Part shown: piece by piece, positions 510-58,819 of the stretch
Numbering within the stretch: the first letter of the stretch is position 1
How the letters are laid out: every line of letters begins with the position of its first letter
Source of the DNA: Rhodoferax ferrireducens T118
Lineage (GTDB): Bacteria; Pseudomonadota; Gammaproteobacteria; Burkholderiales; Burkholderiaceae_C
Assembly (NCBI RefSeq): GCF_000013605.1
Contig: NC_007908.1
Span: 496,001 to 560,000 of the forward strand
Length of the DNA: 64,000 nucleotides
Direction of reading: 5' to 3'
The notes under the pieces: model-generated
What the model was told of the DNA's origin: nothing
The model's database searches: none
Seen by the model: only the letters and a program-made list of their open reading frames with translations
Translations under genes and position numbers: made by a program

Positions 510-1682
510 ATGGACCCACTGCATCAGATCACCGAGCGTATTCGCGCCGCCGCTGCCCACCGCACCCCGTTGCGTATTCGTGCCGGCGGCAGCAAAGACT
601 TCTATGGCCAGTCGCTGCAAGGCGAGGTGCTCGACCTCACCGGCTTGAGCGGCATCATCAGCTACGAGCCCAGCGAGCTGGTAGTCACGGTGCGCGCGGG
701 CACGCCTTTGAGCGAGCTGGAAGCCGTGCTGGCTGAAAAAGGCCAGTGCCTGGCCTTCGAGCCGCCCCACTTTGCGCTGCCAGGCGTCGGTCCAAGCGGT
801 GCCACCGTCGGCGGCATGGTGGCCGCTGGCCTGAGCGGCCCGGCCCGTGCCAGCGTCGGTGGCGTGCGCGACTATGTGCTGGGCGTCAAGCTGCTCAACG
901 GCCGCGCCGAGTTGCTCACGTTTGGCGGCCAGGTGATCAAAAACGTGGCGGGCTATGATGTCTCGCGCCTGATGGTGGGCGCCCTGGGCACGCTCGGCGT
1001 GCTGACCGAGATGTCGCTCAAAGTGCTGCCGCTGGCCCCCTTTGAGGCCACTTTGATGGCGGCTGGCATCGCGCAGCAAGCCGCCCTTGACTTGCTGCAG
1101 CGCTGGGGCGGCCAGCCGCTGCCCTTGAACGCCAGTTGCTGGGTGCGTGACGACAGCGTCAGCCCGGCGCGTGACACCTTGTTTGTGCGCTTGCGTGGCG
1201 CCAGTGCGGCGGTCGCAGCGGCCTGCCCGCGCCTGCTGGCCGACCTGCAAGCCGCAGGCGGTGATTGCGCGCGCCTGGACAACGCGCAAGCCGGCCCCGA
1301 CTGGGCCGCCTGCCGCGACCAAACCCTGCCGTTCTTCCAGCCGCCCGCGCCCGACCTGGGCTTGTGGCGCCTGTCCTTGCCGCCCACTGCGCCCGCGCTG
1401 GCCTTGCCCTACGCGCCCCTGATCGAGTGGCACGGCGGCCTGCGCTGGCTCTGGGCGCCGCTGACGGCACAAGCGCAACTGCGTCAGGCGGCGACCGATG
1501 CGGGCGGGAATGCTATGCTTTTTAGAGCGCCTGACGCAGATAAAACGGGGGCTACAGCTCGTTTTCATCCATTAACGCCGGTGCTGGCTCAGATTCACCA
1601 GCGCCTCAAGGCCGAGTTTGACCCGGCCGGTATCTTCAACCGTGGCCGGATGTACCCCGATGCAAACTCAACTCGCCCCTGA
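510..1682 (+). CDS. glcE: Glycolate oxidase subunit GlcE (FAD-binding)
   Basis: GlcE is the second FAD-binding subunit of the membrane-associated glycolate oxidase GlcDEF, which oxidises glycolate to glyoxylate. The 390-residue product has the FAD-binding PCMH-type fold: RIRAGGSKDFYG near residue 25, GATVGGMVAAGLSGPARA near 100, and GGQVIKNVAGYDVSRL near 140, all typical of GlcE. The C-terminus DPAGIFNRGRMYP is the usual end of the family. The start at 510 is chosen because homology begins at MDPLHQITERIR; the frame is open upstream, and no strong ribosome site is visible. It overlaps glcF by 23 bases, so translation is probably coupled. glcD is not adjacent; the upstream gene is an SMP-30 protein. 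Residues about 334-353 are encoded by a copy of the dispersed repeat (see 1510-1566), in a variable loop just before the conserved C-terminal helix. Confidence 0.93.
   Translation: MDPLHQITERIRAAAAHRTPLRIRAGGSKDFYGQSLQGEVLDLTGLSGIISYEPSELVVTVRAGTPLSELEAVLAEKGQCLAFEPPHFALPGVGPSGATVGGMVAAGLSGPARASVGGVRDYVLGVKLLNGRAELLTFGGQVIKNVAGYDVSRLMVGALGTLGVLTEMSLKVLPLAPFEATLMAAGIAQQAALDLLQRWGGQPLPLNASCWVRDDSVSPARDTLFVRLRGASAAVAAACPRLLADLQAAGGDCARLDNAQAGPDWAACRDQTLPFFQPPAPDLGLWRLSLPPTAPALALPYAPLIEWHGGLRWLWAPLTAQAQLRQAATDAGGNAMLFRAPDADKTGATARFHPLTPVLAQIHQRLKAEFDPAGIFNRGRMYPDANSTRP
1510..1566 (+). repeat. Dispersed repeat copy 1, inside glcE
   Basis: Degenerate copy of the window-wide repeat. TGCTATGC..TTTTAGAGC, then ACGCAG, then AACGGGGGCTACAG match the consensus in order. 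It is in the sense orientation and read in the frame giving ADKTGATAR, equivalent to the AVTTGAR of other copies. It changes no frame and introduces no stop. The flanking GlcE residues (GGNAMLFR before, FHPL after) still look conserved, so the insert is tolerated in a loop. Confidence 0.75.
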
Positions 1683-2928
1683 ATACCAGGCCACGGCCGA
1701 CGGTCTGGCTGCCGAAGCCATCCTGCGCAAGTGCGTGCACTGCGGTTTTTGCACCGCCACCTGCCCGACCTACCAGTTGCTCGGTGACGAGCTGGACGGC
1801 CCGCGTGGGCGCATCTACCTGATGAAACAGGTGCTTGAAGGCGCCACGCCGACGCGCAAGACGCAACTTCATCTGGACCGTTGCCTGACCTGCCGTTCGT
1901 GCGAAAGCACCTGCCCCAGCGGCGTGCAGTACGGCCATCTGCTCGACATCGGGCGCAAGCTGGTCGATGCCAAAGTGCCCCGCCCGGCCGGTGAGCGTGC
2001 CCTGCGCTGGGTGCTCAAAGAGGGCCTGCCGTCACCGCTGTTCGCCCCCGCCATGGCACTGGGCCAGATGGTGCGGCCCTTGCTGCCTGCCGCCCTGCAG
2101 GCCAAGGTGCCGGCCAAGCAAAGCGCGGGTGCTTGGCCCACGCGCGGCCACGCGCGCCAGGTGCTGCTGCTGGCGGGCTGTGTGCAACCGGCCATGGCGC
2201 CCAACATCAACCACGCCACGGCGCGGGTGTTTGACGCGGCCGGTGTCCAGTGCGTGATCGCGCCGAAAGCCGGTTGCTGTGGTGCGGTGAAATTTCACCT
2301 GAACGACCAGGATGGCGGCATGATGGAAATGCGCGCCAACATCGATGCCTGGTGGCCCTATCTGCAAGGCCACAACGGCCACGCCGGGGTCGAAGCCATC
2401 CTCATGAACGCCTCGGGCTGTGGCGTCACGGTCAAGGAATACGGCCACATCCTGCGGGATGATCCGGTCTATGCGGAAAAGGCCGCCCGCATCAGCGCCC
2501 TGACGCAGGACGTGAGCGAATGGCTGCCCGAGCTGAGTGAAAAATTGCGCAGCCGGGTCTCGCCGCAGGTGTCAAAACAGGCCGGCGCCATGGTCTTTCA
2601 CCCGCCGTGCAGCCTGCAACACGGCCAGCAATTGCGCGGCGGCGTCGAGCGTTACCTGGGCGAGTTGGGTTTCAACATCAAAGTGACCGGTTTCGAGGCG
2701 CACCTGTGCTGCGGCTCGGCCGGCACTTATTCCGTGCTGAATCCGGATTTGTCCCATCAACTGCTGGCGCGCAAGCTCGGCCACCTGAACACCACCTTTG
2801 GCGCGGCGCCCCCCGATGTCATCGTCTCGGCCAACATTGGCTGCATCACGCACCTGCAAAGCGGCACCGACACCCCGGTGCGCCACTGGATCGAAGTGCT
2901 GGACGAGGCGCTGCAAGAATCACCATAA
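1660..2928 (+). CDS. glcF: Glycolate oxidase iron-sulfur subunit GlcF
   Basis: GlcF carries electrons from the GlcD/GlcE flavins to the quinone pool. The 422-residue protein has two [4Fe-4S] motifs near the N-terminus, CVHCGFCTATCP and CLTCRSCESTCP, followed by two CCG (cysteine-rich) domains with their signatures CCGAVKFHLND and CCGSAGTYSV. This is the standard GlcF layout. The ATG at 1660 is preferred because the family begins about here (MQTQLAPEY) and an upstream in-frame start would only add residues encoded inside the end of glcE. It overlaps glcE by 23 bases. A repeat copy follows four bases after the stop. Confidence 0.94.
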   Translation: MQTQLAPEYQATADGLAAEAILRKCVHCGFCTATCPTYQLLGDELDGPRGRIYLMKQVLEGATPTRKTQLHLDRCLTCRSCESTCPSGVQYGHLLDIGRKLVDAKVPRPAGERALRWVLKEGLPSPLFAPAMALGQMVRPLLPAALQAKVPAKQSAGAWPTRGHARQVLLLAGCVQPAMAPNINHATARVFDAAGVQCVIAPKAGCCGAVKFHLNDQDGGMMEMRANIDAWWPYLQGHNGHAGVEAILMNASGCGVTVKEYGHILRDDPVYAEKAARISALTQDVSEWLPELSEKLRSRVSPQVSKQAGAMVFHPPCSLQHGQQLRGGVERYLGELGFNIKVTGFEAHLCCGSAGTYSVLNPDLSHQLLARKLGHLNTTFGAAPPDVIVSANIGCITHLQSGTDTPVRHWIEVLDEALQESP

Positions 2929-2931
2929 GAA

Positions 2932-2999
2932 CGCTATTAAATATATAGCTACTTACGCAGTTACAACGGGGGCTAGAGCCCGATTTCTTATAAATTTGA
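2932..2999 (+). repeat. Dispersed repeat copy 2, between glcF and aroG
   Basis: This is one of the best copies. It carries CTATTAAATATATAGCTACTT, ACGCAGTTACAACGGGGGCTAGAG and the AT-rich tail TTTCTTATAAATTTG. It begins 3-4 bases after the glcF stop and ends about 16 bases before the aroG start, so it fills essentially the whole intergenic space. Read in frame it would encode IATYAVTTGARA without a stop, the same peptide as the intragenic copies. Confidence 0.9.
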
Positions 3000-3015
3000 T
3001 GGAACAGGCGCTGCC

Positions 3016-4074
3016 ATGACTTTCCCCTCGGCCTTTGAAAACCTGAACGTGCTGTCCCAGCACACCTTGCTCTCGCCGGCCCAGTTGCACGACGATGTGC
3101 CCGCCAGCGTGCGCGCCACCCAGACGGTCACCACGGCACGCCAGGCGGTGGCCAGTATTCTGAGCGGACGCGACCCGCGTTTGCTGGTGGTGGTGGGGCC
3201 CTGCTCGATCCACGACATTGCCGCGGCAAAGGATTACGCGCAGCGCCTCAAAGCGCTGGCCGATGAGCTGGCCGACCAACTGTTCATCGTGATGCGCGTG
3301 TACTTTGAAAAACCGCGCACCACGGTCGGCTGGAAGGGCTTGATCAACGACCCGCACATGGACGACTCGTTTGACATCGAAGAAGGCCTGCACATCGCGC
3401 GGCGCCTGCTGGTGGAGCTCAATGACATGGGCCTGCCCTGCGGCACCGAGGCGCTGGACCCGATCACGCCGCAGTACCTGGGCGACCTGATCGCCTGGAG
3501 CGCAATCGGCGCGCGCACCACCGAGAGCCAGACGCACCGTGAAATGGCCAGCGGCCTGTCGAGCCCGGTCGGCTTCAAGAACGGCACCGACGGTGACCTG
3601 GACGTTGCCTTGAACGGTATGTTGTCGGCAGCGCAGCCGCATGCGTTTCTGGGTATCAATGGTGACGGTCAGGTGGCGCTGACGCAGACGCGCGGCAATG
3701 CGTTTGGCCATTTGATCCTGCGCGGCGGTGCCGTGCCCAACTACGACTCGGTGGCGGTGGCGCAAGCCGAGGCCGCGCTTAGGGCGGCCAAGTTGCCGGT
3801 CAACATCGTGGTCGATTGCAGCCATGCCAACTCGCGCAAAAACCATGCGCTGCAAACGCTGGTGCTCAAAGACGTGGTCGGGCAAATCCTGGACGGCAAC
3901 CGTTCGATCAAGGGCGTGATGCTCGAATCCAACCTGTTCGAAGGTAACCAAAAGCTGGCGCGCCCGCAAGACTTGCGCTACGGCGTCTCCATCACCGACG
4001 CCTGCCTGGGCTGGGACAGCACCGCCGCCAGCCTGCGCGAGGCCGCGGAACGCCTGCGCACGATGCCGCGTTGA
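3016..4074 (+). CDS. aroG: 3-deoxy-7-phosphoheptulonate synthase (DAHP synthase, class I)
   Basis: Catalyses the first step of the shikimate pathway: phosphoenolpyruvate plus erythrose 4-phosphate give DAHP. The 352-residue protein is the usual length for the AroF/G/H (class I-alpha) family. Diagnostic segments are VVVGPCSIHD near residue 57 (metal-ligand Cys), MRVYFEKPRTTVGWKGLINDP, GARTTESQTHREMASG, GFKNGTDG and the metal-binding DCSHANS. The start has GGAACAGG upstream as a plausible ribosome site, directly after repeat copy 2. Feedback specificity (Phe, Tyr or Trp) cannot be read with confidence, so the symbol is the generic one. Confidence 0.95.
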   Translation: MTFPSAFENLNVLSQHTLLSPAQLHDDVPASVRATQTVTTARQAVASILSGRDPRLLVVVGPCSIHDIAAAKDYAQRLKALADELADQLFIVMRVYFEKPRTTVGWKGLINDPHMDDSFDIEEGLHIARRLLVELNDMGLPCGTEALDPITPQYLGDLIAWSAIGARTTESQTHREMASGLSSPVGFKNGTDGDLDVALNGMLSAAQPHAFLGINGDGQVALTQTRGNAFGHLILRGGAVPNYDSVAVAQAEAALRAAKLPVNIVVDCSHANSRKNHALQTLVLKDVVGQILDGNRSIKGVMLESNLFEGNQKLARPQDLRYGVSITDACLGWDSTAASLREAAERLRTMPR

Positions 4075-4119
4075 GTTTTCGCAAGCGGCGCAGCACAAGA
4101 AGTGCTGACACTGCGCCGT

Positions 4120-5019
4120 ATGCACGCCTTGGTCCGATGCCGCCGTCCGCTGTTGATCGCCCTTTTGGGTCTCGCCCTTGCCTTGCCGGTGCTGGCCCAA
4201 AACAGCACCCCGGATGCCCGCGCTATCGACTTGCGCCAGCAGGCCATCGCCTACGAGAACGGTGAAGGTGTGCCGCGCAACCCAGCGCTGGCGATTTCCC
4301 TGTACTGCCAGGCCGCTGCTCTGGGCGACGCCCAAGCCCACTACAGCCTGGGCTGGATCTACGCCAACGGGCGCGGCGTGCCACGCGACGACGCTATGGC
4401 GGCCTACTTTTTCCAGGCCGCTGCCGCGCAGGGGCTGGAAGCCGCCCAACGGATGCTGAAAATCGTGGGGGAACCGACCCCCGACGTGCCCGAGTGCCTG
4501 CGTCCGCCGGCGCCGCCGCCAGCGTCGGCGACCGACCTGGTGCCGGAGCCGGGTGTGGACTACCAAGCGATTGCGCCGCGCAAGATTTTTGAGCTGGTGA
4601 TGAAAATGGCGCCCCAGTACCAGGTGCAGCCGCAACTGGCGCTGGCCATCATCGCCGCCGAATCGAATTTCGACAGCCAGGCGCTGTCGCCCATGAACGC
4701 CCAGGGCCTGATGCAGCTGATCCCCGAGACCAGCCAGCGCTTTCAGGTGCGCAACCCGTTTGACGCGGCGCAGAACATCCGCGGTGGCCTGGCCTACCTG
4801 CGCTGGTTGCTGGCCTATTTTGAGGGCGACATTGTCTTGGTGGCCGCCGCCTACAACGCGGGCGAGGGCAAGGTGGAGCGTTACCGTGGCGTGCCGCCGT
4901 ACCAGGAAACCCGCGCCTACGTGCAGCGCATCGTGCGCGCGGTGGGCACGCTGGCGCACCCGTTTGACGCCCGCGTGACCCCGCCCTCGCCCGCGCTGGC
5001 CCTGATCCGGCTTAACTGA
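4120..5019 (+). CDS. Sel1-repeat lytic transglycosylase (SLT domain)
   Basis: A secreted or periplasmic murein lytic transglycosylase, about 299 residues. Residues 1-27 form a signal peptide (RCRRPLLIALLGLALALPVLA, cleavage before QNST). Two Sel1/TPR-like repeats follow (AIAYENGEGVPRN..., LGWIYANGRGVPRDD...), then a proline-rich linker and a Slt-type catalytic domain. The predicted catalytic Glu is in IIAAESNFDSQA, followed by MNAQGLMQLIP and the AAYNAGEGKVERY substrate-cleft motif. It cleaves the MurNAc-GlcNAc bond to make 1,6-anhydro products, which links it in function to the ampG-type transporter at 42.9-44.2 kb. A GTG at 4102 is an alternative start. The Sel1 plus SLT fusion is less common than a bare SLT domain. 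Confidence 0.88.
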   Translation: MHALVRCRRPLLIALLGLALALPVLAQNSTPDARAIDLRQQAIAYENGEGVPRNPALAISLYCQAAALGDAQAHYSLGWIYANGRGVPRDDAMAAYFFQAAAAQGLEAAQRMLKIVGEPTPDVPECLRPPAPPPASATDLVPEPGVDYQAIAPRKIFELVMKMAPQYQVQPQLALAIIAAESNFDSQALSPMNAQGLMQLIPETSQRFQVRNPFDAAQNIRGGLAYLRWLLAYFEGDIVLVAAAYNAGEGKVERYRGVPPYQETRAYVQRIVRAVGTLAHPFDARVTPPSPALALIRLN

Positions 5020-5025
5020 GTTGGC

Positions 5026-5511: not shown

Positions 5512-5618
5512 GGCTGTTCCAGATGCTTGAATGGGGCTGCCAGTGTCGCACTTCTGATTAAGTTGCGTGATGGAAGCCTTGGGCGTCCCTGGCCGATTCG
5601 TCCAGGCCACGACGGGCG

Positions 5619-6038: not shown

Positions 6039-6252
6039 CCTTGAACCTCCTGCAGTAGAAGACCCGACGTTGAAGAATAAGCGTCCCAACACAACGAATT
6101 CGGCAAACCAGATGGTCGACTCTGGCGGCCTCGGCCAAATCCAGGCCTTCAGCCCCCTTGAAGCTGCTACCGGCATGGGGTTCGCGTGCGATGACTATAA
6201 GTTAATCCAGGAGAAAATCAAATCTCAACCCCCTGAAACCTTGCGGGACAGA

Positions 6253-8446: not shown

Positions 8447-8568
8447 TGTCTACAGGCGCGCATCAGTGGCTGATGCAATTGTTGTGGTGTGTCTCCGAAC
8501 GATGCGGGTTTATAGCACGCCAGCGAAGTGTCAAAATCCGGACTCCAAGCTTTAACCTCAGAGTGCCC

Positions 8569-9693
8569 ATGCCCCGCCCGATCCAAGCCACCATTCACAC
8601 CGCTGCCCTGCGCCACAATCTGGCGCGCGCCCGTCTGGCCGCGCCAGATGCAAAAGTCTGGGCCATCGTCAAGGCCAATGCCTACGGCCATGGCATTGAG
8701 CGCGTGTTTGAAGGCCTGCGCGCGGCCGACGGCTTTGCCCTGCTGGACCTGGACGAAGCGCAGCGCGTGCGGGCGCTGGGCTGGCGTGGACCGATCCTTT
8801 TGTTGGAGGGTGTGTTCGAGTTGCGCGACCTGGAGCTGTGCTCGCGCCTGGACCTGTGGCACACCGTGCACTGCGACGAGCAGATCGACATGCTGGCCAG
8901 CCACAAGACCAAGGTGGCGCAACGGGTGTTCCTGAAAATGAATTCCGGCATGAACCGGCTCGGCTTTACGCCGCAACGCTACCGCGCCGCCTGGACGCGT
9001 CTGAATGCCCTGCCGCAGGTTGATGAAATTTCCCTGATCACGCATTTCAGCGACGCCGATGGCGCGCGCGGCATCACCGAGCAGATGGCGGTGTTTGCCG
9101 AAGTCACGCGCGACCTGCCGGGCGAGCGCACCTTGAGCAACAGCGCGGCCACCCTGCTTCACACGCCCGCCAGGCAGCCGGGCGACGGCTTCGTCGCCTC
9201 CGACTGGGTGCGCCCCGGCATAGCCATTTATGGCAGCGCGCCGGACTTTCCCCAGCACAGCGCCACTGACTGGGGGCTGCAGCCCAGCATGACACTTACT
9301 GCAAAAATAATAGCTACTCAAACAGTGGATACGGGGGCTAGCGTCGGATATGGCTCAACATTTGTGGCCGACAAGCCGATCCAGGTCGGTGTCGTCGCCT
9401 GCGGCTATGCCGACGGCTACCCGCGCCTGTGCCCCACGGGCACGCCGGTGCTGGTGAACGGGATTCGCACGCGCACCGTGGGCCGCGTGAGCATGGACAT
9501 GCTCGCCGTCGACCTGAGTGCCGTGACGGCAGCCGGTGGCCAGGTTGGGATCGGCAGCGAGGTCACCCTGTGGGGGCGTGCCGCCAATGGCCTGGTGCTG
9601 GGGATCGACGAGGTGGCGCAGCCGGCCGGGACGGTGGGCTACGAACTGATGTGCGCACTGGCGCCGCGAGTCCCCGTGCTGGTCGCAGACTGA
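8569..9693 (+). CDS. alr: Alanine racemase
   Basis: PLP-dependent enzyme making D-alanine for peptidoglycan; 374 residues. The PLP lysine is in WAIVKANAYGHG near residue 38, the second catalytic base (Tyr) is in SVGYGST near residue 260, and GYADGYPR and GRVSMDMLAVDL are conserved. The ATG at 8569 (MPRPIQATIHTAALRHN) matches the family start; the frame stays open upstream but does not look coding. The segment just before the catalytic Tyr (residues about 246-260, IIATQTVDTGAS) is encoded by a copy of the dispersed repeat, yet the family alignment I remember (E. coli Alr, IIAVRDHKAGEPVGYG) shows no gap there. Its TGA overlaps the next start (TGATG). Confidence 0.95.
   Translation: MPRPIQATIHTAALRHNLARARLAAPDAKVWAIVKANAYGHGIERVFEGLRAADGFALLDLDEAQRVRALGWRGPILLLEGVFELRDLELCSRLDLWHTVHCDEQIDMLASHKTKVAQRVFLKMNSGMNRLGFTPQRYRAAWTRLNALPQVDEISLITHFSDADGARGITEQMAVFAEVTRDLPGERTLSNSAATLLHTPARQPGDGFVASDWVRPGIAIYGSAPDFPQHSATDWGLQPSMTLTAKIIATQTVDTGASVGYGSTFVADKPIQVGVVACGYADGYPRLCPTGTPVLVNGIRTRTVGRVSMDMLAVDLSAVTAAGGQVGIGSEVTLWGRAANGLVLGIDEVAQPAGTVGYELMCALAPRVPVLVAD
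9303..9346 (+). repeat. Dispersed repeat copy 3, inside alr
   Basis: AATAGCTACT and ACGGGGGCTAG are both exact matches to the repeat core and are separated by exactly 12 bases, as in the other good copies. It is in sense orientation and in the shared frame, encoding IATQTVDTGAS. The outer arms are poor, so this is the core only. Confidence 0.75.
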
Positions 9694-17637: not shown

Positions 17638-17970
17638 ATGGCTGGCTGGTATGAATTGAGCAAGAGTAGCGATGGACAATTCCGCTTCGTCCTCAAGGAC
17701 GGCACGGGTGACACGCTGCTGACGAGTGAACTCTACAAAGCAAGGAGTTCGGCCGAGCAGGGCGTGGCATCGGTTCAGGCCAACAGTCTGCTGGACGAGC
17801 GCTATGAGCGCAAGACCGCGTCCAATGGAAAAGCATTCTTCAACCTGAAGGCGGCCAATCATCAGGTCATCGGCACCAGTCAGATGTATGCCACCGAGGC
17901 CGCGCGTGAAGCCGACATCGCCCGTGTCAAGGCGGAAGGTGCGTCCAAGACGGTCAAAGAGAAAACCTGA
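17638..17970 (+). CDS. YegP-like DUF1508 protein
   Basis: 110-residue protein with two tandem DUF1508 (YegP) repeats: residues 1-46 ([18 protein letters not shown]...) and about 58-103 ([18 protein letters not shown]...). The repeats fold as small beta-rich units with the conserved F-L-K/A-x-N/D pattern. Function is unknown; family members are induced under stress in some bacteria. The ATG is decided by ACAGGAG nine bases upstream. It stands alone, divergent from mgtA and convergent with the hpaI remnant. Confidence 0.85.
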
Positions 17971-18021
17971 GCTTTCTGCCGGTCAGCGCTGGCGCCTTGA
18001 CTACACACCTTGCTGAACGTT

Positions 18022-18091
18022 AATGAGCCATATCTGGCTCTAGCCCGCGTCGAATATGCCCAGGTAGCTGCTATCTTGATAGCAATATTCA
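18022..18091 (-). repeat. Dispersed repeat copy 4, at the 3' end of the hpaI remnant
   Basis: On the minus strand it reads TTGAATATTGCTATCAAGATAGCAGCTAC..., then CGACGCGGGCTAGAGCC. It is a diverged copy: GCGGGCTAG replaces GGGGGCTAG. The first bases include the TGA stop of the broken hpaI gene, so the repeat starts exactly where the coding sequence ends. Confidence 0.75.
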
Positions 18092-18590
18092 ATAACCACT
18101 GTTCGCAGCGGCGGCTGCCGCCGACAGCTTGAACTTCTCCAGCAGCGCTGTCGCTGCCGCCGACAGCAGCATGGTCTCGACGCCCACCGCCACGAACAAG
18201 GCCCCGGCAGTCAACCATTGGCGGGCCTGGTCTTCGTTGCCGGCCAGGATGCCGGGCGGCCTGGGCCGCCGTGTCCACCATGGGCACCAGAATGGTCTGC
18301 ACACCCAGGTCGAGGTACTGTTTGATCAGCGCAGTCTCGCCCACGGATACGCGAACCACGGGGTGCGAACCAGGGCCCGCCAGCGCACTGGTGGCGCTGG
18401 CAATGGCTTGCAGTTGCCCGAGAACCGAGCGCAGATCGTTGGGCGCGTGCTCGCCGTCGATCACCAGCCAGTCATAGCCGGTGCCGGCCAGAATTTCAGC
18501 GCAATAGGGGTCAGCCAGACCCAGCCACAGGCCGATCTGGGCTTGCTGGTTTTGCAGGGCTTGCTTGAAGATGTTGACAGGTGTTTTCAT
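18089..18590 (-). pseudogene. hpaI: Truncated 4-hydroxy-2-oxoheptanedioate aldolase (HpcH/HpaI) remnant
   Basis: The first about 113 codons from the ATG at 18590 match HpaI well ([50 protein letters not shown]). The sequence then jumps, in another frame, straight to the family C-terminus ([27 protein letters not shown]). Compared with HpaI as I know it (about 260 residues), roughly 110-130 codons are missing from the middle, including the catalytic Arg and metal-binding Glu/Asp region, and the join near 18255 shifts the frame. The intact enzyme is a class II pyruvate aldolase of aromatic degradation. No neighbouring pathway genes are present. Repeat copy 4 lies at the 3' end. Confidence 0.85.
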
Positions 18591-18713
18591 GTTTGTTGCC
18601 TTTTCATCGGGTCTGCGCGCCTTGGTTGCGCTCGTCGCTCCAATGGTGATAGCCAGCGTCAAGCCGGTCAATCGCTTTGTTGTGGCACAGGCCCTCAGGC
18701 TGCCCAATGTTGC

Positions 18714-22647: not shown

Positions 22648-22654
22648 GCCTGAA

Positions 22655-22725
22655 TGTTTTAGAGATAAAACTGACGATAGCCCCCGTCATTGCTATGTAA
22701 TATGCTATTAATAATATAGCAAATA
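22655..22725 (-). repeat. Dispersed repeat copy 5, between the cytochrome operon and radA
   Basis: On the minus strand: TTGCTATATTATTAATAGC..., GCAATGACGGGGGCTATCG, and the tail TTTTATCTCTAAAAC. It starts seven bases after the cytochrome stop, in antisense orientation to both neighbours. The shared frame is open here as well (peptide LIAYYIAMTGAIV), although no gene uses it. Confidence 0.8.
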
Positions 22726-30518: not shown

Positions 30519-31542
30519 AGAATCGGGGTCTCTCCCCCATTCTTTTCGTTCTTTGATCATCGCGCCCCAGTGGATCGGGGATGCGGTGATGACCGAGCCG
30601 CTGATGCGCCGCCTGCAGGCGCGCGGCGAGCGCCTCACGGTCGGTGCGCTGCCGTGGGTGGCGCCCGTGTACCGGCTCATGCCACAGGTGGCGGAGGTGA
30701 TTGAATTGCCCTTCGCCCACGGTGGCCTGCAGCTCAAGGCCCGGCGCAGCTTGGCCCGGCAACTAAGCGGCCGGTTTGACGTGGCTTATGTTTGCCCCAA
30801 CTCCCTGAAAAGCGCCTTGTTGCCGTTGCTGGCGGGTATTCCGAAGCGGGTAGGGTACCTGGGCGAGGCACGGGTGGGCTTGCTGACGCACCGTTTGAAA
30901 AACCCGCCCAAGGCCCAGCGCCCGCCCATGGTCGCGTTTTACTCGGCGCTCAGTGGTGCGGCTGACTCAGGCAATGACCGGCCGCAACTGCAGCTGAATC
31001 CGGTTGAGGTTGACATCGCCCTGGCGGCGCTGGGGTTGCAGCGCGGTGCTTATGACGTGTTTGCCCCTGGGGCTGAATACGGCCCGGCCAAGCGCTGGCC
31101 GACCCGTCATTTTGCCGAGTTGGCCCGTCGTCTTGAGTTGCCGGTTGTGTTACTGGGTTCCGCCAAGGAACGTGACTTGTGTCGTGAGATTGCCGACCTG
31201 GTCAACGCCGACCAGCCGGGCAAATGCCGCAATCTTGCCGGCGAAACTTCGCTCGCCCAGGCATTCAGTGTCATCGGCGCTGCAAAATGCCTGGTCAGCA
31301 ACGATTCCGGCCTGATGCATGTGGGAGCCGCCTTGGGTGTGCGTCAGGTGGCCCTGTTCGGCTCCAGCAGCCCGCTGCACACGCCGCCCCTCAATGATAG
31401 GGCGGCCGTGCTGTGGCTCAAGAACGATGCAAGTTACCAGCCGCCGCTTGATTGCGCGCCCTGTTTTGAGCGCGAATGTCCGCTTGGGCACACACGCTGC
31501 CTGGTGGATATCACGGCTGACCGTGTGTTACTAAATATGTAG
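30496..31542 (+). CDS. waaF: Lipopolysaccharide heptosyltransferase II
   Basis: 348-residue glycosyltransferase family 9 enzyme adding the second heptose to the LPS inner core at the cytoplasmic face. Marks: IIAPQWIGDAVMTEPLMRRL at the start, PGAEYGPAKRWP (nucleotide-sugar binding), GAAKCLVSNDSGLMHVGAALG and the C-terminal LFGSSSPLHTPP. GTG start at 30496, coupled by overlap to the zinc-finger gene. The TAG stop is supplied by the dispersed repeat copy that begins at about 31528, so the last four or five residues (VLLNM) are repeat-encoded. Confidence 0.9.
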   Translation: MSTSPGTKESGSLPHSFRSLIIAPQWIGDAVMTEPLMRRLQARGERLTVGALPWVAPVYRLMPQVAEVIELPFAHGGLQLKARRSLARQLSGRFDVAYVCPNSLKSALLPLLAGIPKRVGYLGEARVGLLTHRLKNPPKAQRPPMVAFYSALSGAADSGNDRPQLQLNPVEVDIALAALGLQRGAYDVFAPGAEYGPAKRWPTRHFAELARRLELPVVLLGSAKERDLCREIADLVNADQPGKCRNLAGETSLAQAFSVIGAAKCLVSNDSGLMHVGAALGVRQVALFGSSSPLHTPPLNDRAAVLWLKNDASYQPPLDCAPCFERECPLGHTRCLVDITADRVLLNM

Positions 31543-31588
31543 CTATACAAGCAATGACAACGGGGGCTAGAGGCTTGTTTTATACAAA
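31528..31588 (+). repeat. Dispersed repeat copy 6, overlapping the waaF stop codon
   Basis: TTACTAAATATGTAGCTATACAAGCAATGACAACGGGGGCTAGAGGC with the tail TTGTTTTATAC. The waaF reading frame runs into it and stops at the TAG in ATGTAGCTA, so the insertion (or its presence) defines the C-terminus of WaaF. Orientation is sense relative to waaF. Confidence 0.85.
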
Positions 31589-31609
31589 AAAAACCACCCG
31601 AAGGTGGTT
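31585..31609 (-). terminator. Distal terminator of the minus-strand unit
   Basis: On the minus strand, AACCACC-TTCG-GGTGGTT followed by eight T. It has a perfect seven-base-pair stem and a stable UUCG loop: a classical Rho-independent terminator. It is the second of two in tandem and ends the kinase/regulator/glycogen strand. Confidence 0.85.
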
Positions 31610-46871: not shown

Positions 46872-46944
46872 AAATATATAAGAAACAGGCCTCTAGCCCC
46901 CGCTGTACAGGCGCAACACGCTATTTAAATAGTAGCAATATTGC
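46872..46944 (-). repeat. Dispersed repeat copy 7, between the decarboxylase and amt
   Basis: On the minus strand: AATATTGCTACTATTTAAATAGCG, GCGCCTGTACAGCGGGGGCTAGAGGCC and the tail TTTCTTATATATTTC. It is a full-length copy with both arms and the AT-rich end, lying in the convergent space between the 3' ends of two genes. The rest of this 144-base gap shows nothing else. Confidence 0.88.
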
Positions 46945-52217: not shown

Positions 52218-52241
52218 GAGCCTGGTGGAGCGCCTGCTTGT

Positions 52242-52301: not shown

Positions 52302-52358
52302 AGCCCATGGGCAAACCCCGCGGCGGGAATGTGCCCGCGTGCCAGGCGCCGTGCGGGG

Positions 52359-53528
52359 CTACCAGTCCACCAGGCTCAAGCCGATGCTCAGCACGGTGCG
52401 ACGGCGGTTGTAGTCGACCAGCGAATCACCATAGCCGCTGAACAATTGGGTGTGAAAACGCAAGGCGTCCTGGCTGCCGGGCAGGCCACTGCTGGTGAGC
52501 TGCCTGAGCCATTCCAGCCGCACCGAGCCGTTGGCGTCGGCGCGCAGCGAGTGGCGCAGGGTCACGCCCAGGGTGTTGTCCTGGTTGGGGGTCCAAAAAG
52601 CCGCCACTTCGGCGCGTCCAATTTTGTTGCTGATGTCGGGGTTGTCGTCATTGGCCAGGTTTTCATTCACGCGCTTCCATAGCTTGGCATCGACCCGGAA
52701 CTGGTTGCCTTTTTCCATGCCGGCCATCAGCACATTGCGGTTCCAGCTGCGCGACAGCGGCAGCGGCTGGCCGTTGGACTGGTGCACCAGGCTCAAGCCG
52801 CTGTAGCGCAGCCGCCAGCCCAAGGGCAACGGCACGTCAGTCGGGTAGATGTAAGTGAGTTCCGGCTCATGGTCGGTGGTGCGAAACGGGCGCGACAGAT
52901 CGCCGCTGAAGATTTGCCAGTTGGACTGCTGGCTGTAGCCAAACCAGAGCGAGTCGCGCTTGAGCTCTTGCTGCCCGGTCAGCAGGCCCTGGGCGATCTT
53001 GGTGCGCACCGAGAGCTGGATCCGGACCTCGTTGTTGCCGTAGCCCAAAGCCTCGGCCGCCGTGTGGTCGGGCGCCGGCGAACTGGGTTGGGTGTTGACG
53101 CTGTCAGAACCGATCCACGACAGGCTGATGGGGTGAAAACCGCGAATGCCAAACGTGCCGCAGTCACTGCCGGCTTCCAGCTCCCAAAACCGCGACAGCT
53201 CGGAAAACAGCTTGTTCTTGCAGTTGTGGGCGGCCGGCGCTTCCATGGTGATCGTCACCGGCGCGGGAGCAACGGGTGCTAGAGCGGGCGTGGCCGGCGT
53301 CTGCGCCAGCGCCGATGCGCCTGGCGACGGCGCACGGCTTGCCGCGGCGCCGGCCTGCTGCGCCGCCCAGCGGTCAAAGCAGATCAGCCGCGCTTCGCTG
53401 TCCCCGGTCAGATTCGCGCACGTTTGCCAGGCCGCCGGCCCGGCAGAAACATTTATATTATTCTGGCCCCTAGCCCCCGTCGTTACTGCGCAAGTAGCTA
53501 TTAAAATAGTAGTGCATAACGGATTCAT
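52359..53528 (-). CDS. pldA: Outer-membrane phospholipase A
   Basis: About 389 residues; OMPLA family beta-barrel hydrolysing phospholipids in the outer leaflet. Active-site segment LVHQSNGQPLPLSRSWNR (His and Ser of HxSNG), LWFGYSQQSNWQ and the C-terminal strand RRTVLSIGLSLVDW ending in Trp. A proline/alanine-rich linker (about residues 60-100) precedes the barrel. The start is uncertain: ATG 53528 or ATG 53561. The N-terminal residues 4-27 (LCTTILIATCAVTTGARGQNN) are encoded by repeat copy 8 and form the hydrophobic core of the putative signal peptide. It lies on the same strand as rep. Confidence 0.88.
   Translation of the reverse strand: MNPLCTTILIATCAVTTGARGQNNINVSAGPAAWQTCANLTGDSEARLICFDRWAAQQAGAAASRAPSPGASALAQTPATPALAPVAPAPVTITMEAPAAHNCKNKLFSELSRFWELEAGSDCGTFGIRGFHPISLSWIGSDSVNTQPSSPAPDHTAAEALGYGNNEVRIQLSVRTKIAQGLLTGQQELKRDSLWFGYSQQSNWQIFSGDLSRPFRTTDHEPELTYIYPTDVPLPLGWRLRYSGLSLVHQSNGQPLPLSRSWNRNVLMAGMEKGNQFRVDAKLWKRVNENLANDDNPDISNKIGRAEVAAFWTPNQDNTLGVTLRHSLRADANGSVRLEWLRQLTSSGLPGSQDALRFHTQLFSGYGDSLVDYNRRRTVLSIGLSLVDW
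53448..53518 (-). repeat. Dispersed repeat copy 8, forming the pldA signal-peptide region
   Basis: On the minus strand: TGCACTACTATTTTAATAGCTACTT, GCGCAGTAACGACGGGGGCTAGGGGCC and the tail AATAATATAAATG. It is a near-complete copy in sense orientation and in the shared frame (LIATCAVTTGARG). It covers about codons 4-27 of pldA, that is, nearly everything before the mature protein. Confidence 0.88.
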
Positions 53529-53589
53529 GATTGGCTTGCTCGGAGGGACAACGTGGGTCATTGTTTCAGGTTTCAAACTGGCCGCGACC

Positions 53590-55345
53590 TTAGAGCGGAC
53601 GCGCCGGCACTTGTATGGCCTGCGCATCCTGCGCTTTTTGCGCAAACTCCGCGCGCAACGCGCGCAGCTTGGCCCGCGGGTCTTCCTTGGTGGTGGCCTG
53701 GTCCAGTGCCATCTCGGCAATGAAGCGGCTGGGCAGGGCGGCCACCATCTCGCGGCCTTTTTTGCGCTTGCGCGTCCAGCTCACCGCCAGGCTGCGCTGG
53801 GCGCGGGTGATGCCCACGTACATCAGGCGGCGCTCTTCCTGCAGGTGCACGGCGGTGGCCTCGACGGCCGCCTCATGCGCACGCTCGGACCCACCGACCG
53901 AGGCGGCCGCGGAGTCGCCGCTGCCCTTCAGCTTGAACGGCAGCATGCCCTCGGTCACACCCACCAGCATCACATGCGGCCACTCCAGGCCCTTGGCGGC
54001 GTGCAGCGTTGACAGCGTCACCACGTTTTGCTCGGTTTCGCGCTCGCTGATGGTCGACAGCAGCGACACCGTTTGCGCCACCTCCAGCAGCGACTTGGGC
54101 TCAACCGTGCTGGAGACCCCGGCTGCGTCGTCGAGTTGCCCGCCGCAGCGCGCGGACATCCAGTCGCAAAAATCGAGCACATTGGTCCAGCGCGCCGCGG
54201 CCAATTTTTCGCTGTCCTCGCCGTCATACAGATGTTTTTCATAGCCGATGTCCTTGAGCCACTCCAGCAAGAAGGCCTTGGCTGATTCGGCACCCAGCGT
54301 GCGCCGGGCGCGAAACTCGAGGTCGTTCACATAGCGGCCAAATTCGTGCAGGCTGCCGACGGCCTTGCTGCTCAGCACGCTGCCCAAAGAAGACGAAAAC
54401 AGGGCCTCGAACAGGCTGATCTTGTATTGGCCGGCAAAAACGCCCAAAGCGCTGAGCGTCTGGTGGCCGATGCCGCGCTTGGGGACCGTCACCGCGCGCA
54501 AGAACGCCGGGTCATCGTTGTTGTTGATCCAGAGCCGGAACCAGCCACACAAGTCCTTGATTTCGGCGCGGTCAAAAAAGCTGGTGCCGCCCGACACCTT
54601 GTACGGGATTTGCGCCTTGCGCAGCGCTTTTTCGAAGGTCTTGGCCTGGTGGTTGGCGCGGTACAGCACGGCAAAGTCGCGCAATTCCTTGAATTGGGGC
54701 CCGCCGTGCGGCAGGCCACTGGCGCGCAGGCTCTGGATGCGCGCCACGGTGCGTTCGGCCTCGTGTTCTTCACTGTCGGCGTCGACCACCCGCACCGGTT
54801 CGCCTTCGCCCAGGTCGCTCCATAAATTCTTGGGGAACAGCTTCGGATTGGGGCCGATCACGTTGTTGGCGGCGCGCAGGATGGCACTGGTGGAACGGTA
54901 GTTCTGCTCCAGCTTGATGACTTTGAGCGTCGGGAAATCAACCGGCAGGCGCTTCAGGTTGTCCAGCGTGGCGCCGCGCCAGCCGTAAATCGACTGGTCA
55001 TCGTCGCCGACGGCGGTGAACCGCGCTTGCGTTGCCGGATTGCCGCCCACCAGCAGCTTCAACAATTCATACTGCGTGGCATTCGTGTCCTGGTACTCAT
55101 CCACAAGGATATGGCCCGCCAGCCCTTGCCATTTCTGCCTGACATGCTCATGATTTTGTAGCAACTTGAGCGGCAGGCTGATCAGGTCGTCAAAGTCAAC
55201 GCTCTGGTAGGCGGCCAGCCGCTCCTCGTAGTGCGCCATGACGCGGGCCACGATGCGATCGCTGTCATTGGCGGCCAGCGCCGCTGCCTGCTGGGCGTTG
55301 AGCCCCTGGTTTTTCCACAGGCTGATGGTCCACTGCCAGCTGCGC
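53590..55345 (-). pseudogene. rep: 5'-truncated Rep-type (UvrD/REP) DNA helicase
   Basis: 585 codons of a superfamily 1 helicase. Present: ILVDEYQDTNATQYEL (motif II), VGDDDQSIYGWRGA (motif III), LEQNYRSTSAILRAAN (motif IV), PYKVSGGTSFFDR, TLHAAKGLEWPHVML (motif V), RRLMYVGITRAQRSL (motif VI). The start is missing: the frame runs through without a family start and ends at a junction near 55345 with porin sequence. Compared with E. coli Rep (about 673 residues), about 130-140 residues with Walker A (motif I) and motif Ia are lost. Without motif I it cannot hydrolyse ATP. The first in-frame Met is 55251. It is not clear whether this is a real deletion or an assembly join (see findings). Confidence 0.85.
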
Positions 55346-56383
55346 GCCGTGCTCGCAGCCTCCGGCGCCTCGTTCGCTCAGTCCAGCGTGACGCTTTATG
55401 GCATTGCTGATGTTTACTTGGGCAACACGAAATTGACCGGGCACGATGGCGTCAGCACAACGACCAATTCCCTTGGCAGCGGTGGTGTCAGCACCGATCG
55501 TTGGGGTTTTAAAGGGTCTGAAGATTTGGGCGGTGGCCTGAAAGCCAATTTCTTGCTGGAGCAAGGTTTTAACATTGACACGGGCGCAGCCAAGGGCACG
55601 GGCAACAATGCGGCTGGTTTGCCCGTAGCCGGTGCGCAAGGCTTTGCCCGCCAGTCCTACGTTGGTTTCTCGGGTGGCTTCGGTGAAGTCAAATTGGGCA
55701 AGATGTGGACTGCTTTTGATGATGTCAATGGTGCCACTGATGCGGTTTTTGACTCGGCCCTGTCGCCGATGTACTACGTCTTTACCAGCACCAACTACAA
55801 CGCCAACCCCGGCAACTCTGTTTACTACACAACCCCGACCTTCAGCGGCTTTAGCGGCACAGTCAGCTATGGCTTGGGCGAAAACAAGACGGCTGCTCAA
55901 AATGCTGGTTCCAACGCAGCCTTCAATGTGCAGTACACAGGCGGTCCGGTGTACGTGGCTTTGGGCTATCAATCCGAGAAAGACAATGGCAATGTGAGCT
56001 CGCGTGACTTTACCCGCGTCAATGCTTCTTATGATTTGGGCGTTGTCAAGCTCATGGGCAACCTTGGCCGCACCAAAGCGAACGACAAGTCCACCAACGA
56101 ATGGCAACTGGGCGTTGATTACCCTGTGGGCAGCGCTTTGACGCTGTCTGCCAGCTACGCAGCTTCCAAAGGTGGGGTCCTGACTACTTTTGCGCCGACT
56201 GCAGCAGGTACAGCTGATGTCAAGCGCACGGGCTTTGGCATCGGTGCTTCTTACTCCCTGTCCAAGCGTACGTCCTTGTATGGTGGTTACATGGCTGCCA
56301 AGGAAGAAGCCAACGCCAACTTTGTCGGCACTGCTGATGCCGAAACCAAGCTGTTTGCTGTTGGTCTTCGCCACGCATTCTGA
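55346..56383 (+). pseudogene. 5'-truncated Burkholderiales-type porin
   Basis: 345 codons of a gram-negative trimeric porin (Porin_4/OmpC-like), from AVLAASGASFAQ|SSVTLYGIADVY to the C-terminal LFAVGLRHAF (final Phe for BAM recognition). The first about nine residues of the signal peptide (the family and the neighbouring gene have MKKSLIAL) and any promoter are absent. The preceding bases are antisense rep sequence. In-frame ATGs exist inside the rep antisense (55238, 55253, 55325) and could give odd N-termini; 55253 offers a signal-like MRSLSLAASAAACWAL. A terminator follows. The mature barrel is intact, so the gene may be only recently inactivated. Confidence 0.8.
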
Positions 56384-56432
56384 TCCCGGCGGTTTGCCGG
56401 CCTGCCTGGCAAACCGCAGCTGACTCAGATAA

Positions 56433-56458
56433 AACCGCCTTTCGGGGCGGTTTTTTTT
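56433..56458 (+). terminator. Terminator of the truncated porin gene
   Basis: AACCGCC-TTTCGG-GGCGGTT followed by six or more T. A standard Rho-independent terminator about 50 bases after the stop. Confidence 0.88.
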
Positions 56459-56600
56459 GGCTGACCGTTCCCGACCCCAACTAAAGCGTTGTATCTGACC
56501 CACATAAACCGGCTATATTTAGCCGCTTGCCCCCAAAATCTTTGCGCTGGTCAGCTCGCTCTGGTCAAATGGAACTCAACTTCTACTCAAGAAGTGATGC

Positions 56601-56619
56601 GAAGCACAACAAGTGCTTC
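56601..56619 (+). promoter_or_regulatory. Leader hairpin of the second porin
   Basis: GAAGCAC-AACAA-GTGCTTC, a seven-base-pair stem 27 bases before the ATG of the porin at 56646. The leader between the upstream terminator and the porin is about 190 bases and contains another small stem (GGCTATATTTAGCC near 56510). Long, structured porin leaders are commonly targets of small RNAs, which is a possibility here. Confidence 0.35.
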
Positions 56620-56645
56620 ACCAATATTAACTTTGGAGTATTTGA

Positions 56646-57662
56646 ATGAAAAAATCCCTAATCGCCTTGGCAGTGCTCGCTGCTTCCGGCGCCGCTATGG
56701 CCCAGTCTTCCGTCACGCTGTACGGTGTTGCAGACGTCGGTTTTGCCCATGAAGACAACGGTAGCACCAGCGTCAACCGTATGGATTCTGGCAATTTGAA
56801 CGGCAGTCGTTGGGGCCTGAAAGGCTCTGAAGATCTGGGCGGCGGCTTGAAAGCGATTTTCACCCTCGAAGCCGGTTTTAGCCTTGACACAGGCGCACAG
56901 GCAGATGCAGCAAGTTTCTTTAACCGCCAATCTTTTGTTGGTGTGTCTAGCAACTTTGGTACCGTCAAGCTTGGTCGTCAAATGAACCCCGTCTATGCCA
57001 CCGCATCCACCTGGGATTCGTTTGGTGACGCACTGGCCGGTGACTCCTCGCATTTGTTTAGCTACAACGGCAGCCGCACCAACAACATGATCTCCTACAA
57101 CTACAGTGCCAATGGCTTCTACGGCGAGTTGCAGTATGGTCTGGGTGAAGTTGCAGGTAACAACTCGATTACCGGTGACAACTCTGCTGGTCGCAGTGCT
57201 GCCATGTTTGTGGGCTACATGAGAGGCCCCTTCGATGTCGTGCTGACGCATCAAAATATCCATAACAGCGGCCCTTACACGACTGCCACCAAAATGACAT
57301 TGCTGGGCGGCAATTATGATTTCGGCGTGGTTAAGCTGTTTGCGGCCTATGCAGTTGAAAAGACCCTGGGTGTTGGCGCCAAGGACCAAAAAGACGCTCA
57401 CCTCGGTCTGACGGCACCCGTTGGCACCGCTGGCACGGTCGAACTGTCCTATCTCCGCAAGAAGGATGATCTGGTCTCCAATGCCAATGCCCATCAAGTG
57501 GCCGTTGGCTACGTTCACACGCTGTCCAAGCGCACTGCGTTGTACACCAGCTACGCTCAGATGAGCAACGAGAGTGCAGCGGCTTATAGCGCTGGCAAGC
57601 TCGTTGTCCCCGCTGGCAATAGCGACAAGGTGTTCGACATTGGCGTGCGCCACTCGTTCTAA
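56646..57662 (+). CDS. Gram-negative porin
   Basis: 338-residue general porin. Signal peptide MKKSLIALAVLAASGAAMA, mature start QSSVTLYGVADVGF, the conserved RWGLKGSEDLGGGLKAIFTLE (as GSRWGLKGSEDLGGGLKA), RQSFVGVSSNFGTVKLGRQ, and the C-terminal FDIGVRHSF. It forms a 16-stranded trimeric barrel for small solutes. TTTGGAG precedes the ATG. It is a diverged tandem partner of the truncated porin upstream, sharing the N-terminal third well and differing in loops. Confidence 0.95.
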   Translation: MKKSLIALAVLAASGAAMAQSSVTLYGVADVGFAHEDNGSTSVNRMDSGNLNGSRWGLKGSEDLGGGLKAIFTLEAGFSLDTGAQADAASFFNRQSFVGVSSNFGTVKLGRQMNPVYATASTWDSFGDALAGDSSHLFSYNGSRTNNMISYNYSANGFYGELQYGLGEVAGNNSITGDNSAGRSAAMFVGYMRGPFDVVLTHQNIHNSGPYTTATKMTLLGGNYDFGVVKLFAAYAVEKTLGVGAKDQKDAHLGLTAPVGTAGTVELSYLRKKDDLVSNANAHQVAVGYVHTLSKRTALYTSYAQMSNESAAAYSAGKLVVPAGNSDKVFDIGVRHSF

Positions 57663-57701
57663 TCTGACGCTGACGCAAGTCAGTTAAAGCTTGAATCCAA
57701 A

Positions 57702-57735
57702 AACCCCGCTGTGGCAACACAGCGGGGTTTTTTGT
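57702..57735 (+). terminator. Terminator of the second porin
   Basis: AACCCCGCTGTG-GCAA-CACAGCGGGGTT with a following T-run: a perfect twelve-base-pair stem with a GNRA-type loop, 40 bases after the stop. Confidence 0.93.
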
Positions 57736-57811
57736 TGAGTGGTGACGCACCGAGGTGCTGGAAATCAATCTTTAAGACGCGGTTGCTGACATGTTGGTTT
57801 GGTTTCTCGCT

Positions 57812-58819
57812 TCAGGCAAAGTGGTCGAACGAGGCGTAGCGGTCGGGCACGGGCTGCCTTTGGGCATCCATCAAGCGCAGGCCGCGCTCGGCCTCAATTT
57901 GCCCGATGCGGGTGACGGGTGTCAAGCTGGCCGCCGCTGCGGCGGCGACGGCCTCGCGGCGGGCCACCGGGGCGGTGAACAGCAGCTCGTAATCGTCGCC
58001 CCCAGAGAGCGCCCAGCGGCGCCATTGCTCTGGCGCAATATTCGTATCAAATTGACCTGTAGCCCCCGTGTAATAGGCGTGAGCTGCTATTAAGGAAGTA
58101 GCAACATCGGCGTCCACCGTGGCGCCCACGCCCGACTGCTGCAGGATGTGGCCAAGGTCGCCAAGCAGGCCGTCGCTGACATCAATGGCCGCATTGGCAA
58201 CGCCGCGCAGTGCCAGGCCCAGCGCCACGCGCGGGGTCGGGGTTTCGAGGCGCACGCGGGCCGCGGTGAACACCGCCTCGGGGACCGACACGGTGCCCCG
58301 AAATACCTCCAGCGCCAGCCGGGCGTCACCCAGGTTGCCACTGATATACAGGTCATCGCCCGCTTGCGCGCCCGAGCGCAGCAGCGCTTGCGATCGCCCC
58401 GCCATCACCGGTACCTCGCCAAACACCGTGATGCAGATGTTGAGCGGCCCCTGCGTGGTGTCGCCGCCGATCAGTTCGCAGCTGTGCGCGTCGGCCAGCG
58501 CCAGCAAGCCCTGCGCGAACGGCGCCAGCCAGGACTCGTCGGCGCGCGGCAGCGCCAGCGCCAGGCTGAACGCCAGCGGGCGGGCGCCACAGGCGGCGAG
58601 GTCGCTCAAATTGACGGCCAGCGCCTTGTGCCCGAGCTTGAAGGGATCCAGCGTGGAGACAAAGTGTCGTCCTTCGACCAGCATGTCGCAGGAAATGGCC
58701 AACTGCGTGCCGGGCGCCGGCTGCAGCAGCGCGCAGTCGTCGCCAATCCCCAAGGCTACGCGTGCGGCGTGGCGCTCAGGGCGTTTGAAATAGCGTTCGA
58801 TCAGTTCAAATTCACCCAT
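57812..58819 (-). CDS. thiL: Thiamine-monophosphate kinase
   Basis: 335-residue ATP-dependent kinase making thiamine diphosphate. Opening GEFELIERYF, metal/ATP sites GIGDDCALL and SCDMLVEGRHF, NLSDLAACGA, GGDTTQGPL, IDVSDGLLGDLGHI and WALSGGDDYELLFTAP. Residues about 238-261 (VATSLIAAHAYYTGATGQFD) are encoded by repeat copy 9 and lie between the conserved DVSDGLL and SGGDDYEL regions. That segment is about ten residues longer than in the ThiL proteins that I remember. It follows the Gcr-type gene by two bases. Confidence 0.94.
   Translation of the reverse strand: MGEFELIERYFKRPERHAARVALGIGDDCALLQPAPGTQLAISCDMLVEGRHFVSTLDPFKLGHKALAVNLSDLAACGARPLAFSLALALPRADESWLAPFAQGLLALADAHSCELIGGDTTQGPLNICITVFGEVPVMAGRSQALLRSGAQAGDDLYISGNLGDARLALEVFRGTVSVPEAVFTAARVRLETPTPRVALGLALRGVANAAIDVSDGLLGDLGHILQQSGVGATVDADVATSLIAAHAYYTGATGQFDTNIAPEQWRRWALSGGDDYELLFTAPVARREAVAAAAAASLTPVTRIGQIEAERGLRLMDAQRQPVPDRYASFDHFA
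58038..58107 (-). repeat. Dispersed repeat copy 9, inside thiL
   Basis: On the minus strand: TTGCTACTTCCTTAATAGCAGCTCACGCC, TACACGGGGGCTACAGG and the tail TTTGATACGAATATTG. Sense orientation, shared frame (LIAAHAYYTGATG). It adds residues without breaking the frame. Confidence 0.82.

Follow-up and report, generated by a model that had tools for sequence, protein, structure and literature searches.

How does the same DNA sequence come to be read, in a single frame, inside four different proteins? The question is raised by a 64,000-nt stretch of the chromosome of Rhodoferax ferrireducens T118 (NC_007908.1, positions 496,001 to 560,000 of the forward strand; here called the window), in which a first, sequence-only reading had picked out nine copies of a dispersed repeat, four of them within glcE, alr, pldA and thiL, and had likened it to the Rickettsia palindromic elements (RPE). 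We found that the repeat is a motif of about 66 nt and that, at the coding sites tested, it comes and goes in place through base substitutions, without insertions or deletions. We regard it, with moderate confidence, as a new and unusually long uptake-signal-like DNA motif; from this likeness we infer that it functions in uptake, that a protein binds it and that drive spreads it.

A gapless motif in four genes

A profile built from 29 genome copies and applied to the window without filters re-found the nine places with 29.9 to 63.2 bits, the next match having 9.1 bits; thus, the nine copies are real, and a weak tenth, inside uvrD, was added. Two sets of 30 and 29 copies, each chosen by the exact core, were aligned in columns without gaps over about 66 nt and gave a single unit, GCTA..ATAGC..CGCA..ACGGGGGCTAGAGGCC..ATTT..AAA. 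The core described before was borne out, whereas the "outer arm" and the "tail", then regarded as additions found in full copies, are part of the same gapless motif. The sense strand is the forward strand for the copies at 1510, 2932, 9303 and 31528 and the reverse strand for those at 18022, 22655, 46872, 53448 and 58038.

The four coding copies lie in glcE (1510..1573, + strand, 30.9 bits), alr (9296..9362, + strand, 47.4 bits), pldA (53448..53515, - strand, 58.3 bits, in a region that by eye is signal-peptide-like) and thiL (58037..58103, - strand, 36.0 bits), and family matches at these loci (FAD-binding, GlcE-like; alanine racemase; phospholipase A1; AIR-synthase-related, ThiL-like) agree with the gene names. 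All four are in sense orientation and in the same frame, as the offsets of the open reading frames (ORFs) confirm, and the copies in glcE and alr run through native codons. Of the three sense frames of the consensus, one has no stop until the AT-rich tail, and this is the frame that the four copies use; the other two are closed inside. The earlier explanation that stop codons exclude the other frames is supported for the sense coding copies. The uvrD copy and antisense copies elsewhere use other frames, with the stop-making letters changed. Third-position G+C is 0.26 to 0.35 within the four coding copies versus 0.81 to 0.84 in the remainder of the same genes. Codons are bent to spell the motif and, in places, so is the choice of amino acids.

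The same sites with and without the motif

An insertion of the motif would add about 22 residues to a protein. The rows compared were the best-matching loci, that is, the best 80 of 577 for alr and the best 30 of the 84, 42 and 88 genomes with a match for thiL, pldA and glcF, respectively. A gap or an insertion within the copy was found in none of the best 80 of the 577 alr orthologues; when the alr copy was left out of the matrix, 10 of these 80 rows scored above 10, the named ones all being Rhodoferax, and the rest scored from 2.8 down to -74. Among the thiL rows, 26 of 30 (own included) were gapless and 4 shared one 8-residue gap, and the motif scored above 10 in 18 of the 30. All 30 glcE rows agreed with the window in length to within 2 residues, and 16 of them had a match above 15. 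The pldA alignment is loose upstream of the copy; 25 of 26 same-genus rows were within 6 residues, and the remaining row (L246) is a fragment without the region. A match above 20 was present in 14 of these 25 rows, and the other 11 were within 3 residues of the same length. The fragment and the rows from another order (L247 to L250), which are 5 to 12 residues shorter there, were left uncounted. Since no counted row of glcE, alr, thiL or pldA lacks the residues that an insertion adds, the coding copies are not insertions. The weak uvrD copy (55095..55166, - strand; matrix score 18.2, or 34.0 after retraining) also aligned without gaps to the relatives G044 (29.1) and G032 (-22.3, i.e., no match). 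In the pldA gene of G044 (L222), the copy is one G short in the core, and the pldA match contains a TAG stop.

Trees of alr and thiL were calculated on codon positions 1 and 2 with the motif columns removed. The alr tree requires at least 8 changes of motif state, 5 of them forced by well-supported branches, and the thiL tree requires 5, of which 1 is forced. Thus, the same place in alr gained or lost the motif repeatedly. The presence or absence expected between relatives at the coding loci was indeed found, but it comes about by substitution.

RPEs are dispersed elements that lie in protein genes, in frame. They are inserted into the genes as extra residues and form a palindrome with a stable hairpin. 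The likeness to them had to be given up: aligned relatives of the four proteins show no insertion, the gap tests in alr, thiL, glcE and pldA rule out an RPE-like insertion, and the form of the motif found in the window (its dialect) has no conserved hairpin.

In-place change could also be the work of short-tract gene conversion, in which the current consensus is copied again and again from a template (RNA, or retron-like or oligonucleotide single-stranded DNA) onto sites that already match it in part. Such a process would explain, besides the in-place change, a length beyond recognition needs and concerted dialects. Pasted blocks should resemble each other, whereas the scores of the copies are graded from weak to strong (18 to 87 in the 464-kb scan described below) and orthologous gap-free copies vary freely at all four coding sites (glcE, alr, thiL and pldA), with identities of 0.67 to 0.85 (0.89 for the weak uvrD copy). 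We consider gene conversion improbable.

Outside coding sequence, a gene border gave a further test. In the window's genome, a gene for a Y1 transposase (L073:12714-13442) precedes a gene that we read as gltB, and the order is the same in relatives (L457-L466); gltB and the assignment of the transposase to the RAYT type are presumed from position and sequence reading. Two short conserved blocks (like TGTGTCC and TGACCCC), separated by about 50 nt, follow the transposase gene in the 11 aligned genomes, whether or not the motif is present. The distance across the border could be measured in 9 of the 11 genomes, G055 and G342 being left out because the Pfam match ended short (two of the measured distances are shifted by 3 nt for the same cause). 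It was 381 to 385 nt in all 9, of which 5 have the motif and 4 do not. Two border copies are weak (22.4 and 26.8), the 26.8 copy being outside the measured distances.

This border bears on the idea that the motif is a repetitive extragenic palindromic (REP) or REPIN-like element, moved by a RAYT-type transposase, dispersed as single strands and then decaying. REP elements are described as palindromes of 20 to 40 bp linked to RAYT genes; they have a GTAG or CGTC tag at one end. Like them, the motif is short, has hundreds of copies and lies near gene ends, and a Y1 transposase match was present in 22 of 22 genomes. In all 7 motif-bearing genomes, which represent three genera, a copy (22.4 to 70.1) lies at the 3' end of the transposase gene and is always antisense to it. 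The GTAG REPs in the literature are mainly located 3' of coding regions, often supply TAG stops and sometimes lie in ORFs (PMC3733652). Mobilization by a RAYT looked promising from the 3'-end copies, but it was weakened by the equal border spacing: the copy next to the transposase gene is, like the four coding copies, there without insertion. The transposase is also present in motif-less genomes, the motif changes in place and, at about 66 nt, is not a 20- to 40-bp palindrome, and the window's dialect has no conserved hairpin. Transposition by a RAYT is therefore hardly a probable origin of the copies.

Abundance, dialects and probable reading as duplex

The motif is not confined to the window. 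The exact core ACGGGGGCTAG occurs 62 + 62 times in the genome, 124 exact cores in all, versus once for the reversed pattern. A matrix scan of 464 kb, made up of the window and 20 sampled stretches, found 52 places above 15, 10 of them in the window, with a maximum of 7.9 in reversed sequence. Outside the window, in 380 kb of sampled chromosome, the first matrix found 42 copies (about 110 per Mb) and the retrained matrix found 48 (about 126 per Mb), densities that extrapolate to roughly 500 to 600 copies in the 4.71-Mb chromosome. The further copies that a genome search was expected to bring to light therefore exist, here and in relatives. The orientation of the 150 best copies is balanced (74 versus 76).

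Hundreds of copies set the motif apart from the Beta-proteobacterial repeat elements (BRE), repeats of up to about 90 bp that average 69% G+C in Bordetella, are sometimes tandem and number at most 29 per genome (PMC3110155). BRE are found, like the motif, in several Comamonadaceae in addition to Bordetella and have some copies in coding sequence (PMC3110155). With about 66 nt, a G+C content of 29 to 51% (36 sampled copies with E < 0.002), 500 to 600 extrapolated copies and 779 nt between the closest two of the 150 best copies, the motif differs from BRE, which were compared by description only.

Many copies lie near the 3' ends of genes, according to our own gene calls on the 464 kb, and antisense coding copies occur elsewhere in the genome; the gene caller is home-made and placed the pldA start too late. 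The idea that every window copy is sense to its neighbor was dropped after this gene calling. A position near gene ends would suit an RNA-level element such as a terminator, an mRNA stability element or a small-RNA target. Copies in both orientations, including antisense copies inside genes, do not suit it. RNAalifold predicted 4 pairs for the window's dialect (-0.92 kcal/mol), and no pair of either possible stem covaried in more than one genome when covariation was analyzed within genomes; on these results, an RNA hairpin was rejected. Within the window, no Rfam family matched at gathering score. A role at the level of RNA is very improbable. The inner arms are complementary in the consensus of G254 and of G055, but not in the window's dialect. 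Since the stems do not covary, the columns act independently, as they would in recognition of a duplex. The information in the motif amounts to 47 to 68 bits in seven genomes (uncorrected for sample size) and is arranged in blocks, with best periods of 12.25 to 12.75 nt; none of 2,000 column permutations was as strong, a weak control that ignores the correlation of neighbors.

How widely is the motif distributed? In 148 genomes, exact ACGGGGGCTAG was found 134, 86, 82, 78 and 73 times in five same-genus genomes and 20 to 45 times in four, with numbers near zero in many; it was found 0 or 1 time in the 59 genomes of other families. Exact GCTAGAGGCCNATTT marks a partly different set (53 of the 148 genomes). 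Within the motif's own family, it was present in 47 of 250 genomes and in 31 of 126 genera. Single hits made up 11 of these 47 genomes, and a control pattern gave a single hit in 9 of the 250; some of the single-hit genomes may thus be due to chance. Among 30 loci listed from the GCTAGAGGCCNATTT positives, L312, L324 and L335 were not motif-like. Where an exact pattern is absent, there is room for another dialect in that genome.

The dialects differ in the middle of the motif, which reads CGCA..ACGGGGGC here and GCGCTT..AAGCGC or GCCCTT..AAGGGC elsewhere. In seven genomes from three genera, of which 200 to 444 kb each were sampled, the motif has a density of 105 to 210 per Mb. For each of the seven, a matrix derived from the other six gave 16 to 54 hits above 25 and 0 in reversed sequence; above 15, there were 20 to 60 hits versus 0 reversed, except for 1 in G032. 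Columns 25 to 47 alone placed 170 of 260 copies in the right one of the seven genomes (leave-one-out). Around alr, copies above 25 were found in Acidovorax (23 in 93 kb), Rhodoferax (8 in 81 kb), Polaromonas (2 in 14 kb), Giesbergeria (2 in 6 kb), Comamonas (1 in 21 kb) and further loci (4 in 171 kb). None was found around alr in Limnohabitans (60 kb), Variovorax (43 kb), Ramlibacter (20 kb), Curvibacter (12 kb) or Delftia, Caenimonas and Hylemonella (7 kb each), and the reversed-sequence control around alr gave 0 copies in all genera.

A duplex motif at hundreds of sites might also be bound by a protein that organizes or segregates the chromosome; selection on this housekeeping protein would keep the sites, and the dialects would follow changes in the protein. 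The 257-kb plasmid, where about 8 of the 150 best copies are expected by length, has none, and this, the reading as a duplex and the information blocks at 12.25 to 12.75 nt would all fit such a protein. Against it, the 150 best copies are clustered beyond random (P 0.003), stretches of 307 kb and 250 kb (the second spanning the contig ends, taken as joined) are empty of them, and no clear strand bias by chromosome half is seen (32 copies on plus and 42 on minus in the first half, 42 on plus and 34 on minus in the second). Furthermore, many same-genus genomes match neither exact pattern, and Limnohabitans and Variovorax have no copy in the 60 and 43 kb given above. Motif-less relatives fit a dispensable trait better than a housekeeping protein, and we consider a chromosome-organizing protein an unlikely reader of the motif.

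The 307-kb empty stretch corresponds to about 907,700-1,214,250 of the chromosome. Sampled sequence from within it (L064) has no matrix match and contains ABC transporter, LacI-type and radical SAM genes; it does not look mobile. Another sample without a match (L065) holds IS66 and TniB-like genes. Weaker copies are present near the 250-kb stretch (L061).

Three further window copies may be described here. The one at 18020..18086 (- strand, 29.9 bits) lies inside an ORF (17880-18707, - strand) and in the same frame as the copies in glcE, alr, pldA and thiL. The first half of this ORF is HpcH/HpaI aldolase-like; it matches only positions 1 to 100 of the 221-position family model and continues through the motif copy, and it is perhaps a truncated gene. 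For the copy in the register 22653-22724 (72 columns), the best-matching part is 22677..22723 (- strand, 31.0 bits). The copy at 31525..31591 (+ strand, 52.7 bits) contains the TAG (31540-31542) that ends a glycosyltransferase family 9 gene. Between the uvrD and thiL copies, two neighboring ORFs at 55325-57662 share direct repeats (D4, D10; 74 to 78% identical) and thus look like a tandem duplication.

A candidate uptake signal

We return to the uptake signal as the explanation that we favor. Like the motif, the uptake signal sequences (USS) of Pasteurellaceae and the DNA uptake sequences (DUS) of Neisseriaceae occur hundreds of times, both within genes and between them, and are strongly over-represented on both strands. 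They have dialects between lineages (PMC3630211). USS are reported to evolve by point mutation, not by insertion, and to be rare in newly acquired segments (PMC7811141), and permissive locations and scarcity in acquired genes are described as well (PMC2397512). The motif resembles uptake sequences in its strand symmetry, its dialects, its permissive places and its change in place, and the lack of any of the 150 best copies on the plasmid would fit a scarcity in acquired DNA. With the transformation data from the family and the ComEC matches given below, this points to a candidate uptake signal. In Verminephrobacter eiseniae, transformation requires type IV pili and is only mildly reduced by an excess of salmon DNA, and Acidovorax temperans was transformed by DNA of its own species only (PMC4212676); both genera belong to the Comamonadaceae (PMC3110155), and the Acidovorax loci around alr carry the motif, as given above. 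The passages of PMC4212676 on selective transformation name no signal sequence. A literature search that included the core string showed no paper on the motif among those listed, which does not prove it to be unpublished.

The signal would be a double-stranded one of about 66 nt that occupies hundreds of places on both strands of the chromosome, namely gaps, the ends of genes and tolerant stretches of proteins, and it would most likely serve self-recognition in natural transformation. A type IV pilus receptor would bind matching DNA more strongly, uptake and recombination of such DNA would become more frequent, and the motif would accumulate through this bias (molecular drive). A shift in the preference of the receptor would then let all sites drift to a new dialect.

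If so, one might look to competence proteins as markers of motif-bearing genomes, but ComP and ComEC failed to discriminate. The ComP-type pilin family PF16732 was found in 76 of 90 genomes, motif-bearing and motif-less alike. ComEC was matched in 21 of 22 genomes, and the one without a match, G047, bears the motif. Neither protein, therefore, marks the presence of the motif. In G000 (C2:2933855-2934016), G032, G044 and G045, only about the N-terminal half of the family model is covered by the ComP-type pilin match, compared with the full model in many others, including G047; the half-length matches possibly reflect divergence of the receptor. In two same-genus genomes, a motif copy lies inside the ComEC-family match itself (G000:C2:2723837-2724637 and G010:C1:2598691-2599488).

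The behavior of ComP and ComEC is one of several points that weigh against an uptake signal arising in place. The motif is about 6 times as long as the 9 to 11 bp quoted for uptake sequences (PMC4212676), and its 47 to 68 bits, compared with such cores, far exceed the need of about 500 sites. Its density of 105 to 210 per Mb contrasts with 1,465 to 2,206 USS and 1,892 DUS per genome (PMC7811141), and, unlike these, it belongs to another family. The role in uptake is that of a candidate, suggested by likeness to uptake sequences. For Neisseria DUS, one paper argues that recombination, often opposite gaps, and not point mutation brought the copies in (PMC2397512), and the restriction of A. temperans to DNA of its own species may come from the homology needs of recombination.

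Two copies outside genes also weigh on this side. The gene following glcE is taken as glcF, a name presumed from position and sequence reading. The copy at 2931..2996 (+ strand, 63.2 bits) lies directly 3' of its stop codon (2928), in a gap of 87 nt; the gap is 9 nt in two motif-less relatives and 90 nt in a third, and hence an insertion or deletion is possible there. The copy downstream of the ammonium transporter gene (46872..46939, - strand, 41.0 bits) differs from that of G047 by a few small gaps in a pair alignment; this flank was read in raw orientation in 30 relatives and in the one pair alignment, which decides nothing. Finally, the dialect assignment was wrong for 90 of the 260 copies, 36 of these errors being between the look-alike pairs G000/G032 and G010/G254.

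Put more boldly, and only tentatively, the Comamonadaceae may have a third, independently evolved uptake-signal system. Its signal would be six helical turns long, read by an extended receptor or filament with graded contacts about a turn apart; some 500 to 1,000 sites per genome, including codons of essential genes, would be rewritten in place by biased uptake alone, and genome-wide dialect switches would keep species apart.

Whatever the reader protein, a motif of about 50 to 60 bits that is kept at hundreds of places by substitution while its dialect changes genome-wide is hard to reconcile with ordinary binding-site evolution. Odd peptide stretches such as IATxAVTTGAR reflect a constraint on DNA and not the function of the protein. 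The motif also puts a concrete sequence beside the published sequence-selective transformation in Comamonadaceae (PMC4212676). If the uptake reading is true, it would add a third family, one that is widespread in water and soil, and with it an independent case for the old debate between selection and accumulation by drive as the origin of uptake signals.

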